Shown here piece after piece: positions 1,904 through 33,001 of a stretch of DNA of 34,856 bases; position 1 is the stretch's first letter, and the number at the start of each line of letters is the position of its first letter. Below the pieces are notes generated by a model. That model was not told the origin of the DNA, did no database searches, and worked only from the letters and a program-made list of their open reading frames with translations. This stretch comes from a virus: positions 1 through 34,856 of the IMG/VR virus record IMGVR_UViG_3300022752_000211; one strand, written 5' to 3'. The translations under genes and the position numbers were made by a program.

Positions 1904-2611
1904 TTATTTCCTAGAATTATCTATTATTTTTAATTTTAAAGCTTTAGTTTCATGCTCTCCGATAGAGTTTCCATTTTCATCAATAGCATCTCTGTACCAA
2001 TCTGTCCACTGTCCAGATTGATTTATAATTTGAGCAGCATCACCATAGCTTTTTAATTTAGCATCGTAATCTTCTGGTTTAATAAAATCTTCTATTTCTA
2101 CAGATTCATCTTTTAATAAAGTAAGAGAAATTGGAATAATAGTAGCAATAGGAGTTCCAGCTTTTATAGTAATTTCTTTATTTGGAACCTTAGCTTTAAT
2201 TGCTAATGGAAAATCAACATCAAAAAAAGATGTACTTATTAATGATGACATTACTTCAAAATCTTCATAAAAATAATTTTGTGGAGTAATACTTAATACA
2301 CTTATATTTTTTTCTGATTTTAAAATAAGTCCCGTATTAAAACTTACTGAGCCTTGTCCTCTTCCAGTATAACAATACTCCTGACCAGATAAAATTTTAA
2401 CCCTATCTGGTGTTGTATCTATTTGACCATCCCATATAAACGATACATCAACTGGACATGCCAATGTCCATCCTATTGTATTTGCCATTGTTACTGGAAA
2501 ACATCTGTAAGCGTGTCCGTCTGGTGTGGCGTCCATCCAATCTCTTTTAACTGGTATGGGTTCAATTATAAAAGAATTTTGATGTCTTTTATATGCTTTT
2601 AATATAGACAC
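1904..2611 (-). CDS. DUF6065-like protein, GTG start
   Basis: A protein of 235 residues, function unknown. It begins with GTG, whose G overlaps the TAG stop of the upstream oxygenase (TAGTG), so translation is probably coupled. Recognisable stretches are GWTLACPVDVSFIWDG (about residues 47-62), YCYTGRGQGSVSFNTGL and AGTPIATIIP (about 154-163). They line up in order with the neighbouring 1173-1901 product. No membrane segment or catalytic motif is obvious. Its place between two 2OG-oxygenase pairs suggests a shared pathway. Confidence 0.62.
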   Translation of the reverse strand: MSILKAYKRHQNSFIIEPIPVKRDWMDATPDGHAYRCFPVTMANTIGWTLACPVDVSFIWDGQIDTTPDRVKILSGQEYCYTGRGQGSVSFNTGLILKSEKNISVLSITPQNYFYEDFEVMSSLISTSFFDVDFPLAIKAKVPNKEITIKAGTPIATIIPISLTLLKDESVEIEDFIKPEDYDAKLKSYGDAAQIINQSGQWTDWYRDAIDENGNSIGEHETKALKLKIIDNSRK

Positions 2612-3267
2612 TAGTTGCCAGTATCTTCATACATTGCTTGGGTATGGAATTTTGCGCTATAGTCTAGCATCGTAACTAAAGAATATTTAGTTCCAGATTT
2701 AACTACTTTAGCTTGATGTGGGTACATATATGTTGAAGGGAATATGTATAAATCTCCAGCTTTTGGCTTAATGTTTAAATTTTGTAATCTAAAATATAAT
2801 TCTCCACCCTCATAATCATCATTAATATAACCAACTAAAGAAACTGTACAGTTGTACGAAAATCCATGGTCGTGGTGCTCCATAAAATGGTGACCAGGGA
2901 CATATTTAATAAAATTAAAAGCTTCCCAATATTGTAATTTATGTATGTTATGCTTTTTGCAATAATCTTCTACTGCTGGCGCTTGTCTGTCATAACAATC
3001 TTGCCATAGTTCTTGCATTCTTAATGAAATTTCAGATTTATCTTGTTCAATGTCTGTTTTTTTAAATTTAAAATCAACACATTCTCTGTACTCTGGCATT
3101 CTTTCTTGATAGCCCACATATGCTGGTTGCCATGTCCAACCTGGAACTTTTCCGTCTAAATTTGATTCTAATCTATTAATAATATCTAAATCTTTTGTTA
3201 AAACATCTCTATAAACCCAAATCCCTGATCCCAAATCTTCTGCGCTTGACCAAGTTTGTTTATTCAT
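2611..3267 (-). CDS. 2OG-Fe(II) oxygenase, prolyl-4-hydroxylase type
   Basis: A protein of 218 residues with HxD as His131-x-Asp133 in EHHDHG, distal His184 in MYPHQAK and the YINDDYEGGELYF strand at 147-159. The residue expected to bind the 2-oxoglutarate carboxylate is Lys194 (SGTKYSLV) rather than Arg, as in many prolyl-4-hydroxylases. It shares CVDFKFK, YEAFNF-like and PGHHF-like stretches with the 3267-3986 product, so those two are the closest pair in the operon. Its ATG overlaps the preceding stop by one base (TAATG), implying coupled translation. Substrate unknown. Confidence 0.88.
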   Translation of the reverse strand: MNKQTWSSAEDLGSGIWVYRDVLTKDLDIINRLESNLDGKVPGWTWQPAYVGYQERMPEYRECVDFKFKKTDIEQDKSEISLRMQELWQDCYDRQAPAVEDYCKKHNIHKLQYWEAFNFIKYVPGHHFMEHHDHGFSYNCTVSLVGYINDDYEGGELYFRLQNLNIKPKAGDLYIFPSTYMYPHQAKVVKSGTKYSLVTMLDYSAKFHTQAMYEDTGN

Positions 3268-3986
3268 TAATTATTCTCCTTATGTCCTAATAGGTTAATA
3301 TCCATCATTACTACAACAGAATATTTATCTCCAGAAATCATTGGTTCCGAAGAATGTTCATATATATAGTTTGATGGGAATATTACTACGTCACCACGTT
3401 TTGGCTTGTATACTAATTTATCTAATCTTGGAAATGCTATTTCTCCACCTTCATAATCGTCATTTAAATAAATAACTGCTGATACTGTGCAATTATAATG
3501 TGGACCATGATCTGCATGAACTCTAAAGTGTTGTCCTGGACTACTGTACTTTACAAAATTAAATGCTTCGTAATATACGACACCAATTCCCCAATATTCA
3601 CAATAATCATCTATACAGCTTTTTAATATATCATATATTGATTTATGCATATCAAGAAGTTCTGCGTTGTTTTCATTTCGTGGTCCAAGATTTTCTGGCT
3701 TAAACTTGAAGTCAACGCAATCTCTTGCAGATTTTACTGGTTTGTCCGAGGTAGTAACTTGTGCCTCTGACCATTTATATAATTTACCATTAGTTAATTT
3801 ATCCTCTAATGTTTTAATTGATTTTTCGCAAATATTATTTGGAACAGCTGCTTCATAAATATTTAACCCAATTCCTGGATTTAAAACTTTAATATCTTTA
3901 AAGAATCTATTAACTCTAAAAGAAGTTGATTCCGACCTATCTTTTGTAAACCAAGGATTATTGTCTATATCATAAATATCTGACAT
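3267..3986 (-). CDS. 2OG-Fe(II) oxygenase, first gene of the oxygenase operon
   Basis: A protein of 239 residues. His157 and Asp159 (VHADHG), distal His211 (YEHSSEP) and Lys221 (SGDKYSV) form the expected iron and 2-oxoglutarate sites. YLNDDYEGGEIAF is the family strand. It begins 24 bases downstream of the -10 box of a consensus promoter, with AGAAAG as a modest ribosome site. It resembles the 2611-3267 product throughout (RDCVDFKF, EAFNFVKY, PHYNCTVS), so the pair arose by duplication. The target protein or small molecule is not evident. Confidence 0.9.
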   Translation of the reverse strand: MSDIYDIDNNPWFTKDRSESTSFRVNRFFKDIKVLNPGIGLNIYEAAVPNNICEKSIKTLEDKLTNGKLYKWSEAQVTTSDKPVKSARDCVDFKFKPENLGPRNENNAELLDMHKSIYDILKSCIDDYCEYWGIGVVYYEAFNFVKYSSPGQHFRVHADHGPHYNCTVSAVIYLNDDYEGGEIAFPRLDKLVYKPKRGDVVIFPSNYIYEHSSEPMISGDKYSVVVMMDINLLGHKENN

Positions 3987-4080: not shown

Positions 4081-5412
4081 TTACTTATTATGCGTTAGTA
4101 TATTACCAGCAAAGTACCAGTTATATGGATCGCAACTAAATGTGTAGACATCTTTTGGATTATCTAAGGTTTCTTTAGTTACAGATGTTACTGTTATTTC
4201 AGAAACTGCATCTTGTGTTATAGCAAATTCATGTAATTTGTCTGGATCTATAATTATAATTACATCTCCTTCTGTAACACTTGACGCCTCTACTACACGA
4301 TATACTGAATTTCTCTTTATAAATATTGGGTGAGTGTCAGTAAATTTATTTGCATGATCATTATTAAAATATACTCTGTCTGCTTTTTGAGCAACAATTA
4401 TATTTGTAATTTCTGTCATTACAAATTTTGAATTTATATTCAAGTCTGTAGTGTTCAAGTCAAATGTACCTTGGCCTGATTCTAATGCTTGAACATCAAC
4501 TGTTAGTAGTGAATCTCCCATTTTTATATTTTTAGCAGAAGTTAATCCATTGCTAGTTAATATTAATGTGTCTTCGTCTACGCATCTAGTAAAATACGGA
4601 CCAAACCTTGGTGGGAAGAATGGTGGGAAGTACGGGAAGAACGGGAAGAACGGTGGGAAGTACGGTGGGAAGTACGGGAAGAACGGGAAGAACGGTGGGA
4701 AGTACGGTGGGAAGAATGGTGGGAAATACGGGAAGAATGGTGGGAAATACGGGAAGAACGGGAAGAACGGTGGGAAGAATGGGAAGAATGGTGGGAAATA
4801 CGGGAAGAATGGTGGGAAAAATGGTGCTGTAGTTGTTACAGAGTTTGTAGTTTCTCCTTCTGATGTTCCATTATCATTGATTGCATAAATAGTATAAGTT
4901 TGTGATGTATTAGCTGTTTCAGAAATTGTTGCTGGTGATGTTTGATTTGAATATGACGGACCATCTGATGAAACAATTGTATAACTTGTAATTGATTTAC
5001 CGCCATCAGCACCAGCTGACCATGTAACTACGTCTTGATCTGCATTTGGTGAAGATGCGCTTACTGAAATAGGTTTAGCTGGAACAGTAGTAACGCTTGT
5101 TGAACTTGATTGAGTAGCAGCTGAGGTTCCTGCTCCATTTGATCCAGTTACTAAAAATGTATATGATGTAGCAGATAAACCTGTTACTTGATATGAAGTA
5201 TCAGATGTTGTATATGTTGATGTGCTAGGATTTGTTGTAATTGAGTAAGAAGTTGCAGCTGGTGAACCTGCTGGTAATTCCCAAGAAAGGTCTACCGCAC
5301 CATTATTAAATGCTCTATTTGTTCCAACATCTGTAGCTGTTAAATTTACTACTGGTTTTGGTTCTAAAAAGTCATTTGCTGACTGTGAATGTCTACCAAC
5401 TTTTTTACTCAT
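4081..5412 (-). CDS. Fibronectin-III / PFFP-repeat / C-terminal Hint-domain protein
   Basis: A protein of 443 residues in three parts. Residues about 18-109 and 112-195 are two fibronectin type III domains (VDLSWELPAGSPAATSYSI and VVTWSAGADGGKSITSYTI are their cores). Residues 197-268 contain only Pro, Phe and Tyr in an FFP/YFP/PFFP pattern. Residues 277-443 form a Hint (intein-like) domain: it opens with Cys277 (CVDEDTLILTSNG), has the block-B-like DTHPIFI, and ends with Gly-Asn...THN then a single Lys and the stop. Hint domains cleave or splice their own chain; one ending at the C-terminus suggests N-terminal thioester chemistry that cuts or attaches the upstream part. It belongs to the fibre gene cluster, so it is probably a virion appendage or host-surface binder. 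No partner intein half is visible. Confidence 0.85.
   Translation of the reverse strand: MSKKVGRHSQSANDFLEPKPVVNLTATDVGTNRAFNNGAVDLSWELPAGSPAATSYSITTNPSTSTYTTSDTSYQVTGLSATSYTFLVTGSNGAGTSAATQSSSTSVTTVPAKPISVSASSPNADQDVVTWSAGADGGKSITSYTIVSSDGPSYSNQTSPATISETANTSQTYTIYAINDNGTSEGETTNSVTTTAPFFPPFFPYFPPFFPFFPPFFPFFPYFPPFFPYFPPFFPPYFPPFFPFFPYFPPYFPPFFPFFPYFPPFFPPRFGPYFTRCVDEDTLILTSNGLTSAKNIKMGDSLLTVDVQALESGQGTFDLNTTDLNINSKFVMTEITNIIVAQKADRVYFNNDHANKFTDTHPIFIKRNSVYRVVEASSVTEGDVIIIIDPDKLHEFAITQDAVSEITVTSVTKETLDNPKDVYTFSCDPYNWYFAGNILTHNK
4609..4824 (-). repeat. Degenerate tandem repeat coding Pro-Phe-Tyr only
   Basis: On the plus strand the tract alternates GGGAAGAAC, GGTGGGAAG and TACGGGAAG-type units of 9 and 12 bases; as coding sequence it reads 72 residues of only P, F and Y. 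Copies are nearly identical at DNA level, so the array probably expands and contracts by slippage or recombination. Confidence 0.9.
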
Positions 5413-23236: not shown

Positions 23237-23263
23237 CCGCTCAACCTAACGAAAGGAAATAAA

Positions 23264-23371
23264 ATGAACGAATACCTTAACTATCTAGATGAGGTCTATG
23301 ATGACCTAGTGTCTGAATATGGTGAGGGCATAACATTTGCCTACCATGTCGCTAATGAAAAGGAGATGTGA
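23264..23371 (+). CDS. Small early protein
   Basis: A protein of 35 residues, MNEYLNYLDEVYDDLVSEYG then a short polar tail; strongly acidic and helical. AACGAAAGGAAA ends 4-5 bases before the ATG. First gene of the early block. No family recognised. Confidence 0.6.
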   Translation: MNEYLNYLDEVYDDLVSEYGEGITFAYHVANEKEM

Positions 23372-24608: not shown

Positions 24609-24638
24609 ATCGGCTATAACGAAAGGAAGTGGCTAACA

Positions 24639-24987: not shown

Positions 24988-25019
24988 TACCAATAACAAC
25001 AACGAAAGGAAAACTATAA

Positions 25020-25769: not shown

Positions 25770-25797
25770 TCTTATTCACCCAACGAAAGGTCAACTT

Positions 25798-26837: not shown

Positions 26838-26922
26838 AAGGCGCCCACATAGCTGCGGGGTCGGGCGTGTCTTTAAGGGTGTGATACAAATCACCCTGGA
26901 AAATATGGGCGTGTCTTAAAAA
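26838..26922 (+). repeat. Intergenic repeat, third copy
   Basis: Contains GGCGCCCACA..GCTGCGGGG, GGGCGTGTC (26863), GGGTGTGATACAAATCACCC (dyad 26880-26895), CCCTGGAAAAT and GGGCGTGTC again (26908). It is the same set of elements as in the gaps at 24370 and 25643 in a shortened form. Confidence 0.65.
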
Positions 26923-26945
26923 ATGTCAGTTAAATCTGCTATAAT
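26923..26945 (+). promoter_or_regulatory. Early promoter module 6
   Basis: ATGTCA (26923-26928), 11 bp, TATAAT (26940-26945) with TGC before it, then AACGAAAGGAAAAC before the start at 26969. Confidence 0.72.
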
Positions 26946-26968
26946 TCCAATCTAACGAAAGGAAAACA

Positions 26969-27261: not shown

Positions 27262-27284
27262 AAACCCCTAACGAAAGGAAACAA

Positions 27285-27478: not shown

Positions 27479-27505
27479 AAACCCACCTAACGAAAGGAAA
27501 TACAA

Positions 27506-28374: not shown

Positions 28375-28401
28375 AAGCATTCAACCAAACGAAAGGATAA
28401 A

Positions 28402-29580: not shown

Positions 29581-29609
29581 TTGATAATGTCAGTTGACTC
29601 TGCTACAAT
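29581..29609 (+). promoter_or_regulatory. Early promoter module 10
   Basis: TTGATA (29581-29586), ATGTCAGT directly after, TACAAT (29604-29609) preceded by TGC; -35/-10 spacing 17 bp. AACGAAAGGAAT follows. Confidence 0.72.
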
Positions 29610-29634
29610 TGCGCTAATTAACGAAAGGAATAAT

Positions 29635-30393
29635 ATGCCTAACTGGGTGTATAACACATTAACAATCCAAGGACCTAAGTCTGAGATAGATTTTATCAAA
29701 GATAAACTTAACGAGCCATTTATGGTATGGCACGATAGTTGGAATATGGAAACTATGAAAATGGAAGTAACAGAATCAACTTACTCTAATCCTGTCTTTG
29801 CATTTTGGAATATACATTCTCCACTACAAGACGGTATTACAATGCAAGAATATGTTCAACAGCCTACACGACTAGGAACAGACACGAGTGCACCTGACTG
29901 GTTTGCTAAAGAGGTAGCACATGCTAAAACTCAGAAAGATTGGTATTCATGGAATACATCTAACTGGGGAACAAAATGGGATGTCGCCGTAGCAGACAAA
30001 GATGAATATCCTGATACTGAATTACTTGAGTATACATCAGAGGGTGATGATAACTGGCTAGTATATAAATATAACACTGCTTGGTCACCTGCTGTAACTA
30101 TATTAACTAAACTAAGTAATCTTATTCCTAACTCTTTACTAACCCTTGAATTTGAGGAAGAGACAGGTTGGGGTGGAGAATATGAGATTGTCCGTGGTGA
30201 AGTTAAAGAGAATCTAGAATATACCAATATGTGCTATGCCTGCCAATCCTATGACACAATAGATTATTGTGAAGAGGGATGTGGGGAATTCTGTTCATCT
30301 TGCAACGAGGGTAGTTGGAGAGATGATAAGGCTATGGCAGAATGTCAGACCCATAAGATATACTTAGCCACTACCGAAACGAAAGGGAACTAA
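29635..30393 (+). CDS. YubB/DUF1281-like protein with C-terminal Cys cluster
   Basis: A protein of 252 residues from the ATG at 29635, which has AACGAAAGGAAT upstream. MPNWVYNTLTIQG is the hallmark start of DUF1281-type (ferredoxin-like fold) proteins on phages and plasmids; SPAVTILTKLSNLIPNSLLT followed by EEETGWGGEYEI is the second hallmark. Residues about 198-232 hold eight Cys (CYACQSYDTIDYCEEG...CSSC), a probable zinc-binding addition. Function unknown. TAATG overlap with the next gene. Confidence 0.85.
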   Translation: MPNWVYNTLTIQGPKSEIDFIKDKLNEPFMVWHDSWNMETMKMEVTESTYSNPVFAFWNIHSPLQDGITMQEYVQQPTRLGTDTSAPDWFAKEVAHAKTQKDWYSWNTSNWGTKWDVAVADKDEYPDTELLEYTSEGDDNWLVYKYNTAWSPAVTILTKLSNLIPNSLLTLEFEEETGWGGEYEIVRGEVKENLEYTNMCYACQSYDTIDYCEEGCGEFCSSCNEGSWRDDKAMAECQTHKIYLATTETKGN

Positions 30394-31445: not shown

Positions 31446-31850
31446 ATGGGAGATAGAGCAAACTACGTATTCGTAGACGGAGCAGGCGATACCATATGTC
31501 TATACGGACACTGGGCTGGATATAACATGTTAGGTAAATTGGCGGATGCTGTCATTGCTGCCCGTCCCCGTTGGACAGATGAATCATATGCTACACGCAT
31601 TGCGATCAGTCAATTAATTGGAGACCAATGGAATATGGAAACAGGCTGGGGTCTTCAAGTAAATTCAATCGGAGATAACGAGCACAAGATTGCTGTTATC
31701 AACTGGAAAGATCAAACGTTCTCGCTACACGAGCAAGACGATCACCGAAACCTTGAAAACAAAGTTCTTGGTATGAAGAATGAAGCAATCTTTACCATGG
31801 ACCTATCGGCATTTTGTGAGAAGTATGCATTGGAAAGACTACTCGTTTAA
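31446..31850 (+). CDS. Conserved early protein (MGDRANYVFV family)
   Basis: A protein of 134 residues. MGDRANYVFVDGAGDTICLY-GHWAG is the hallmark start of a small family found in phages and actinobacteria; TRIAISQLIGDQWNMETGWGL fits its middle. Function unknown. It starts 2 bases after the previous stop. The -10 box of the small RNA promoter lies just after its stop codon. Confidence 0.82.
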   Translation: MGDRANYVFVDGAGDTICLYGHWAGYNMLGKLADAVIAARPRWTDESYATRIAISQLIGDQWNMETGWGLQVNSIGDNEHKIAVINWKDQTFSLHEQDDHRNLENKVLGMKNEAIFTMDLSAFCEKYALERLLV

Positions 31851-31855
31851 TATGA

Positions 31856-31861
31856 TATAAT
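31856..31861 (+). promoter_or_regulatory. Extended -10 promoter for the 31867 RNA
   Basis: TGATATAAT: TGA then TATAAT (31856-31861), an extended -10; the -35 position (GAAAGA) is poor. The predicted start is 31867-31868. Confidence 0.6.
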
Positions 31862-31866
31862 TTGAA

Positions 31867-31999
31867 TAGGCCCTGTGCCTATTTATATAAATGGTGCATC
31901 TCCTCTAGATGCTAAGTAAGGCAGGTTTTCCCTTTCGTTGAGGTCCTAGCAGCCATTTATCTTAGCCCCCGTGATCCCATACACGGGGGCTTCTCTTTT
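31867..31999 (+). ncRNA. Predicted regulatory small RNA complementary to early ribosome sites
   Basis: The roughly 130-nt transcript is not coding. It can fold as: hairpin AATAGGC/CCTGT/GCCTATT (31865-31883); an 8-bp long-range stem ATAAATGG (31887-31894) with CCATTTAT (31953-31960) that encloses hairpin GCATCT/CCTCT/AGATGC (31896-31912) and the stretch GTTTTCCCTTTCGTTGAGG; and a terminator GCCCCCGTG/ATCCCATA/CACGGGGGC with TTCTCTTTT (31965-31999). CCCTTTCGTT (31930-31939) is the exact complement of AACGAAAGGG, the leader sequence of the early genes. The CCTCT loop is complementary to AGAGG. It probably base-pairs with early mRNAs; this is inference. No known RNA family is recognised. Confidence 0.62.
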
Positions 32000-32100
32000 G
32001 CGCTCACGGGTGAGGGTAGCATATGTTGTTTACGAGAGTCAAATATATTTCCTGGAAATCTCAAAGCTTGGACATGTGGTGTGAAACACACCTATATTCT
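32000..32100. other. Gap with dispersed motif copies and CRP-like dyad
   Basis: TTTACGAGAGTCAAATATATTT then CCTGGAAATCTC match the gaps at 34340 and 29537, and TGTGGTGTGAAACACA (32075-32090) matches TGTGA-N6-ACACA except for one base. No gene is seen. Confidence 0.5.
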
Positions 32101-32101
32101 A

Positions 32102-32130
32102 TATACAATGTCAGTGGCATGTTATATAAT
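32102..32130 (+). promoter_or_regulatory. Early promoter module 11
   Basis: TATACA (32102-32107), ATGTCAGT (32108-32115), TATAAT (32125-32130): 17-bp spacing. AACGAAAGGATT before the start at 32157. Confidence 0.72.
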
Positions 32131-32156
32131 TAAGCCATACTAACGAAAGGATTAAA

Positions 32157-32396
32157 ATGGCAGAAGTATCATTTCTTGAAAATGAGAATCAAATGGTAAT
32201 TGACGCAGAACTGCAAGCAATTGCAGAACAATTACTAGATGACTGGATGAATGAAAATCTAAATGAAGGTACATTCTATGCTGATTGGTGTATTGCTGAT
32301 AGGGTAGATAGTAATTACTTGAAAGGTAGATTTAATAAACATTATAATTTAACATCTACAGATGAACATTATATTGAATATGATGAGGAGAAATAA
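32157..32396 (+). CDS. Small acidic early protein
   Basis: A protein of 79 residues, MAEVSFLENENQMVIDAELQ... with QLLDDWMNENLNEGTFYADW; very acidic. It starts the last early operon, and its stop overlaps the next ATG. No family recognised. Confidence 0.68.
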   Translation: MAEVSFLENENQMVIDAELQAIAEQLLDDWMNENLNEGTFYADWCIADRVDSNYLKGRFNKHYNLTSTDEHYIEYDEEK

Positions 32397-32744: not shown

Positions 32745-33001
32745 TGATTAATATTAATGGCAAACTTGAACCCCGTCTTCAAAAGCTTGTAGACATGGGT
32801 GAGACAGGTACAGACATCATGCATGGACATATGAAGAATCTAATGTATGAATGTGAAACTAAACTATTAGAAATAGGTGATTCTGATAATATTGCAGATA
32901 AATTCTATTTTGAAGGACGTATGGACGCATTGACAGAAATATACATTATGACGTATAATTTATCATTCGCTATCAACGAAAGGGCTAAACAACGTGGATA
33001 A
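32744..33001 (+). CDS. Small early protein
   Basis: A protein of 85 residues, MININGKLEPRLQKLVDMGE..., helical, with NIADKFYFEGRMDALTEIYI. TAATG-coupled to the previous gene. No known function. Confidence 0.66.
   Translation: MININGKLEPRLQKLVDMGETGTDIMHGHMKNLMYECETKLLEIGDSDNIADKFYFEGRMDALTEIYIMTYNLSFAINERAKQRG

Follow-up and report, generated by a model that had tools for sequence, protein, structure and literature searches.

A locus on the early (+) strand of a 34,856-nucleotide stretch of viral DNA (IMG/VR record IMGVR_UViG_3300022752_000211; "the window" refers to this whole stretch) raises the question of whether one phage-encoded RNA could control the translation of an entire early gene set. 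A preliminary description had proposed that positions 31867-31999 encode a structured small RNA that contains the reverse complement of a leader shared by the early genes. We analyzed the window and related phage sequences to see how far this proposal holds.

The RNA locus and the leaders in the window

The leader, AACGAAAGG, occurs 12 times on the + strand of the window and once on the - strand, against a chance expectation of 0.12 copies (the largest number in any shuffle was 2). Its sole reverse copy is CCCTTTCGTT at 31930-31939 (+), inside the predicted RNA, as had been proposed. All 12 + strand copies precede early gene starts, and these are the 12 starts that the preliminary description had listed: the copies are located at 23248-23256 (gene at 23264), 24618-24626 (24639), 25001-25009 (25020), 25782-25790 (25798), 26954-26962 (26969), 27270-27278 (27285), 27489-27497 (27506), 28388-28396 (28402, DUF932), 29620-29628 (29635), 30378-30386 (30393), 32142-32150 (32157), and 32975-32983 (32994); none belongs to the leftward strand, with its tail-like and ribonucleotide reductase genes. 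The gene at 30393 does have the longer match of 12 bases that had been reported (AACGAAAGGGAA; its duplex is predicted at -23 kcal/mol), which is confined to this one site.

The locus lies between the gene at 31446-31850 and the gene at 32157. Both transcription signals named earlier are present: an extended -10 promoter, TGaTATAAT (31853-31861, +), directly 3′ of the stop codon of gene 31446-31850, and a strong, GC-rich intrinsic terminator (31964-31999, +), whose 10-bp stem (31964-31991; 8 GC pairs, followed by a T tail) is the first-listed terminator-like site in the half of the window that was scanned. The predicted RNA between them (31867-31999, +; about 130 nt) folds 3.4 SD better than its shuffles (z -3.4). 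It begins with a 5′ hairpin, UAGGC/GCCUA (31867-31881), comparable to one visible in many relatives, and continues into a three-way-junction core (31887-31960) made up of helix P1 (31887-31895/31952-31960), helix P2 (31896-31901/31907-31912), the joining segment J23 UAAGUAAG (31913-31920), and helix P3 (31921-31925/31945-31947+31949-31950), all on the + strand; the loop of P3 contains the anti-leader sequence CCCUUUCGUU (31930-31939). One earlier suggestion has to be abandoned, namely that a CCTCT loop pairs with AGAGG: CCTCT is the loop of P2, which varies freely among relatives (in L007 it is different and shorter).

The upstream gene, 31446-31850 (+), matches phrog_31860, a family with no assigned function, and its own ribosome-binding site is not the leader. 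In Streptomyces phage Karimac (L195, 5001-5695), a homologue of this gene is followed directly by a tmRNA gene, and the gene family may therefore mark a site for structured RNAs. We rejected a tmRNA identity for the RNA itself, as neither ARAGORN nor Rfam found a tRNA-like domain with a tag frame. A further non-coding stretch is conserved on the 3′ side of the terminator, at about 32000-32060; with the consensus TGAGGGTAnCATAT...TTTACG...AtttCCtGaAAT, it follows the RNA in many relatives, including L062. Elsewhere in the window (4081-5412, 490-1155, and 2611-3986), inspection by eye revealed a tail-like protein with long Pro-Phe repeats and an apparent Hint/intein-type domain at its end, near three genes resembling 2-oxoglutarate/prolyl hydroxylases.

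A covarying three-way junction with an invariant loop

A protein search with the upstream gene retrieved 65 IMG/VR loci, and in nearly all of them the RNA directly follows the homologue of this gene. Pooling these with the results of pattern scans, which demanded the junction but not the P3 loop, and with other loci gave a total of 204 loci; 104 distinct sequences fit the junction, and 103 of these 104 contain CUUUCGUU exactly, having been found mostly by searches that made no use of the loop. In 200 of 202 RNA loci, the core is preceded, at a median distance of 46 nt, by a homologue of the upstream gene. A -10-like hexamer lies upstream of 79 of 103 distinct relatives, and a terminator-like site was found in 76 of 102; where no clear promoter is recognisable (24 of 103; a recognisable terminator is absent in about a quarter), the RNA may be processed from the upstream mRNA.

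The family has no counterpart in the collections that we searched. Rfam, applied to the window at the gathering score, returned tRNAs only and no RNA family match, and for L127, L089, and L066 (E up to 3) only tRNAs scored above the gathering threshold; the pistol ribozyme, considered on account of GGUGC and GUUAAAUA, had no model match in either of these searches and was dropped. Nucleotide searches of INPHARED for the RNA gave no matches, and bacterial genomes (one per species) gave two pattern matches, both without the junction, which we take to be chance. Streptomyces phages of the Karimac type and the lake phage DSL-LC01 encode relatives of proteins from the window, which makes an actinobacterial host likely; the hosts of this family of uncultured phages are probably freshwater actinobacteria.

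Covariation in related phages, which the preliminary description had put forward as a check, supports the junction. Among 53 sequences below 95% identity, 95.8% of the cells in P1, P2, and P3 (18 pairs in all) are paired, as compared with 78.5% in shuffles; ten of the 18 pairs vary on both sides, and the covariation score is 0.462 vs. 0.135 in shuffled alignments (reached in 0 of 500 shuffles). As a control, sliding the partners by 1-3 columns reduced covariation to 0.012-0.097. The covarying helices and a length that varies freely among relatives support the claim that the RNA is non-coding, and in these respects it has the properties of a structured, non-coding, phage-encoded RNA of the antisense class. 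In the joining segment UAARUAAR, the preceding base and the fourth base change together (C/G in 31 sequences, U/A in 36, and U/C in 2), probably reflecting a tertiary contact. In one subtype the P3 loop contains UUUACUU, which could form a pseudoknot with J23 (AAGUAAA); we rejected this possibility because J23 becomes AAAUAAA in close relatives (L045/L046 vs. L048) and the loop shows no corresponding change.

The loop and its scaffold can be found apart from one another. In L062 the junction is lost, and only a single hairpin, GUGGGGAGG-UUUCCUUUCGUUCUC-CCUCCCCAC, and the terminator are left; this minimal hairpin still displays CCUUUCGUU, and the same phage keeps about ten leaders. The predicted accessibility of the octamer is only moderate (mean unpaired probability 0.66; 0.2-0.9 in the window), a point against antisense pairing. 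Conversely, the junction scaffold is seen with other or very short P3 loops in L127 (2994-3059), L089 (2748-2818), L225 (147-205), L229 (6225-6284), and L312 (526-576), with a homologue of gene 31446 near the scaffold in the contig of L089 and in L229; the scaffold therefore probably has a role besides the one involving the leader.

Leaders, promoters, and their link to the loop

Across the RNA-bearing loci, leaders before ATG codons are found almost entirely on the strand of the RNA (457 exact and 296 with one mismatch, vs. 1 exact and 6 one-mismatch copies on the opposite strand). Most of the exact leaders lie 5-10 nt from the ATG, and a gap of 6-8 nt prevails. A -10-like hexamer mostly ends 8-16 nt upstream of the leader, and the mRNAs therefore probably begin at or just before it. 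The typical actinobacterial 16S rRNA ends in CCUUUCU, with which GAAAGG can pair. The AAC of the leader cannot pair with this end (C3 faces its terminal U), yet A1, A2, and C3 each remain unaltered in over 90% of the leaders that have no more than one mismatch (C3 in about 94%). Sorted by gene family, the 647 distinct leaders represent 46 families, so the targets change while the leader persists. Predicted duplexes between loop and leader (-14 to -23 kcal/mol) are stronger than those of the same leaders with the typical 16S tail (-7.6 to -14.9 kcal/mol) in all 12 cases in the window, by a narrow margin at 24618.

A promoter class, TGTCAG-N10-TATAAT, precedes 432 of 583 leader sites across the relatives; examples in the window are found at 26920-26960, 29590-29630, and 32110-32150. 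Its TGTCAG box sits within the usual spacer, which suggests a dedicated activator or repressor. Promoters of the RNA in the relatives are of another kind, with an extended -10 (TGn) in 56 of the 75 scored and a TGTCAG box in none of the 75, suggesting a difference in timing between the RNA and its targets.

The loop and the multiplied leader occur together. All 25 long phage records that carry the loop RNA have a cluster of about 6-14 copies of AACGAAAGR on one strand. The opposite strand has only 0-2 copies (4 in one record), and in many cases these include the copy within the RNA. Four records that carry the scaffold with another loop (G001, G002, G029, and G030) have 0-4 copies, near background; among them G002 has three true leaders and mostly uses AAGAAAGG. 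The refuting test set by the preliminary description therefore turned out in its favor: relatives that retain the scaffold but not the CUUUCGUU loop are also without the leader set. Together with the covarying scaffold, the invariant loop, the minimal hairpin, and the way leader positions differ with loop type, this co-occurrence supports the earlier interpretation, with a structured RNA whose loop is kept to match the leader.

The base before CUUUCGUU in the loop is C, A, or U, and the facing base of the leader differs accordingly (647 leaders in 46 families): it is G in 270 of 282 leaders facing a loop C, and in 252 of 365 facing a loop A or U, where A rises. With gene family controlled for, the odds ratio of leader G vs. 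loop C is 38; on the other side of the loop, the odds ratio for leader C facing loop G is 4.4. These figures come from pooled leader counts and a family-controlled test, which replaced an ortholog-by-ortholog comparison that proved too noisy, with imprecise starts. No compensatory U appears in leaders facing a loop A. Since loop type follows clade and a few gene families carry most of the effect, this association between sequences is supportive, but not proof.

The leader also occurs without the RNA. In phage DSL-LC01, ACGACGAAAGGACAA, an extended form of it, recurs about 20 times, but neither such an RNA nor a complement on the same strand is present, so conservation beyond the Shine-Dalgarno sequence does not require the RNA. 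The first role of the leader was therefore probably ribosome binding, and the RNA may make use of a leader that predates it.

Probable antisense control of early translation and its alternatives

Several known systems resemble parts of this arrangement. In the c4 antisense RNA of phages P1 and P7, complementary stretches, likely in loops, pair with a ribosome-binding region and block translation (PMC12197685). By description, c4 is the mechanistically closest system, a structured phage-encoded RNA directed against the ribosome site of a phage mRNA; here, too, sequence and predicted duplexes indicate a loop complementary to such sites. However, c4 acts on the ant mRNA, whereas the RNA described here has its own three-way-junction fold and is complementary to leaders from 46 gene families, with some ten leaders in each phage. 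The OOP RNA of lambda and the sar RNA of P22 are likewise small phage RNAs (about 70-77 nt) that act by pairing with a phage mRNA, but each has one target gene (cII and ant, respectively) and there is no shared leader. Among bacterial small RNAs, RsaE/RoxS, AbcR, and the actinobacterial 6C RNA have anti-Shine-Dalgarno loops; they are encoded by host chromosomes and bind generic G-rich sites of many mRNAs. They share with the phage RNA a pyrimidine-rich loop aimed at many ribosome sites, but the pairing proposed here goes beyond the Shine-Dalgarno sequence to a phage-specific leader.

The leader set itself is comparable to the Start Associated Sequences (SAS) described in mycobacteriophages of cluster K (GGGATAGGAGCCC) and in Microbacterium phages of cluster EF (GGGAAAGGACCCC). 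These conserved sequences are longer than the Shine-Dalgarno sequence and directly precede the starts of many non-structural genes, in many cases following a promoter element that is likewise shared (PMC3203893, PMC11373665, PMC7302621); whether the partner of the cluster K SAS is an RNA or a protein was left undecided (PMC3203893). The leader is such a repeat, at the ribosome site of many genes and conserved beyond the Shine-Dalgarno sequence, and appears to work like the cluster K SAS, but its sequence is different (AACGAAAGG is not GGGATAGGAGCCC) and here an RNA partner is encoded. In mycobacteriophage Adephagia (JF704105), the SAS has a single reverse copy, which falls precisely within the 10-nt loop of a strong hairpin located between genes 92 and 93 (L208, 28660-28715; JF704105 ∼58660-58715); the seven Anayavirus sequences that we aligned retain this copy. 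It is absent in representatives of K2, K3, K6, K7, and Amginevirus, though they have the SAS, and the Microbacterium phage AnnaSerena has no reverse SAS copy at ≤2 mismatches. As only the K1 phages examined show an anti-SAS loop, we rejected a general rule for SAS phages, and the K1 parallel is a lead.

On the sequence evidence, we consider antisense control of early translation, most likely repression, to be the probable function of the RNA. Transcribed from its own extended -10 promoter, the RNA would use the three-way-junction body to hold arm P3, whose loop would present CCUUUCGUU. A duplex of 9-12 bases would form between this loop and the common leader, AACGAAAGG(AA), which includes the Shine-Dalgarno bases GAAAGG. 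In many early mRNAs, the leader is probably part of the first dozen nucleotides, and pairing there would cover the ribosome-binding site and lower the translation (perhaps also the stability) of the whole early set together. Repression could grow as the RNA builds up, for example with genome copy number.

Pairing might instead activate or protect the mRNAs, by shielding their 5′ ends or delivering them to a phage factor: located 8-16 nt downstream of a -10-like hexamer, the leaders probably stand at the very 5′ end, where pairing can also block decay. We regard this as quite unlikely, since GAAAGG, the Shine-Dalgarno bases, would be included in the pairing, and the duplex is predicted to be stronger than the one with the 16S tail. 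Somewhat more weight, still well short of likely, goes to the possibility that AACGAAAGG is merely a good ribosome site or a mark for a phage or host factor, that the loop serves another use (a protein or host mRNAs), and that the complementarity is a by-product of shared ancestry. DSL-LC01, which conserves its extended leader without a complementary RNA, and AnnaSerena, whose SAS also lacks a near-exact reverse copy, are consistent with this; against it are the exact complement kept in 103 of 104 loops, the co-occurrence of loop and multiplied leader, and L062, which retains the loop hairpin alone.

That a transcription factor binds the repeat as DNA, with the copy in the RNA gene as an inverted autoregulatory site, is highly improbable. 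Its closeness to the TGTCAG-N10-TATAAT promoters (432 of 583 sites) would fit, but the repeat keeps its distance to the ATG (mostly 6-8 nt) while shifting by several bases relative to the -10, and the copy in the RNA gene has a fixed place in a covarying RNA loop, away from its promoter. Chance complementarity or an assembly artefact is practically negligible: we found no point in its favor, the arrangement recurs in about 200 loci from many metagenomes, and the 12 leaders against one reverse copy, the covariation, the invariant loop, and its co-occurrence with the leader all speak against it.

The RNA thus represents a genuine family of phage RNAs that had not been catalogued before and whose invariant loop matches a regulon-wide leader; it is a structured family without an Rfam match, present on about 200 viral contigs. 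The antisense RNAs described for phages address one or a few genes each. More tentatively than antisense control as such, we suggest a one-to-many "master antisense" arrangement, in which a shared leader behind each early promoter might make every early mRNA the target of one RNA, with an exchangeable display loop on a reusable scaffold providing a dosage-sensed, protein-free shut-off of the gene set. The partner of the SAS in actinobacteriophages has not been known since 2011; here, a conserved RNA containing an exact complement of such a repeat is present together with it in 25 of the 25 long phage records checked, so that an RNA partner can be tested directly.
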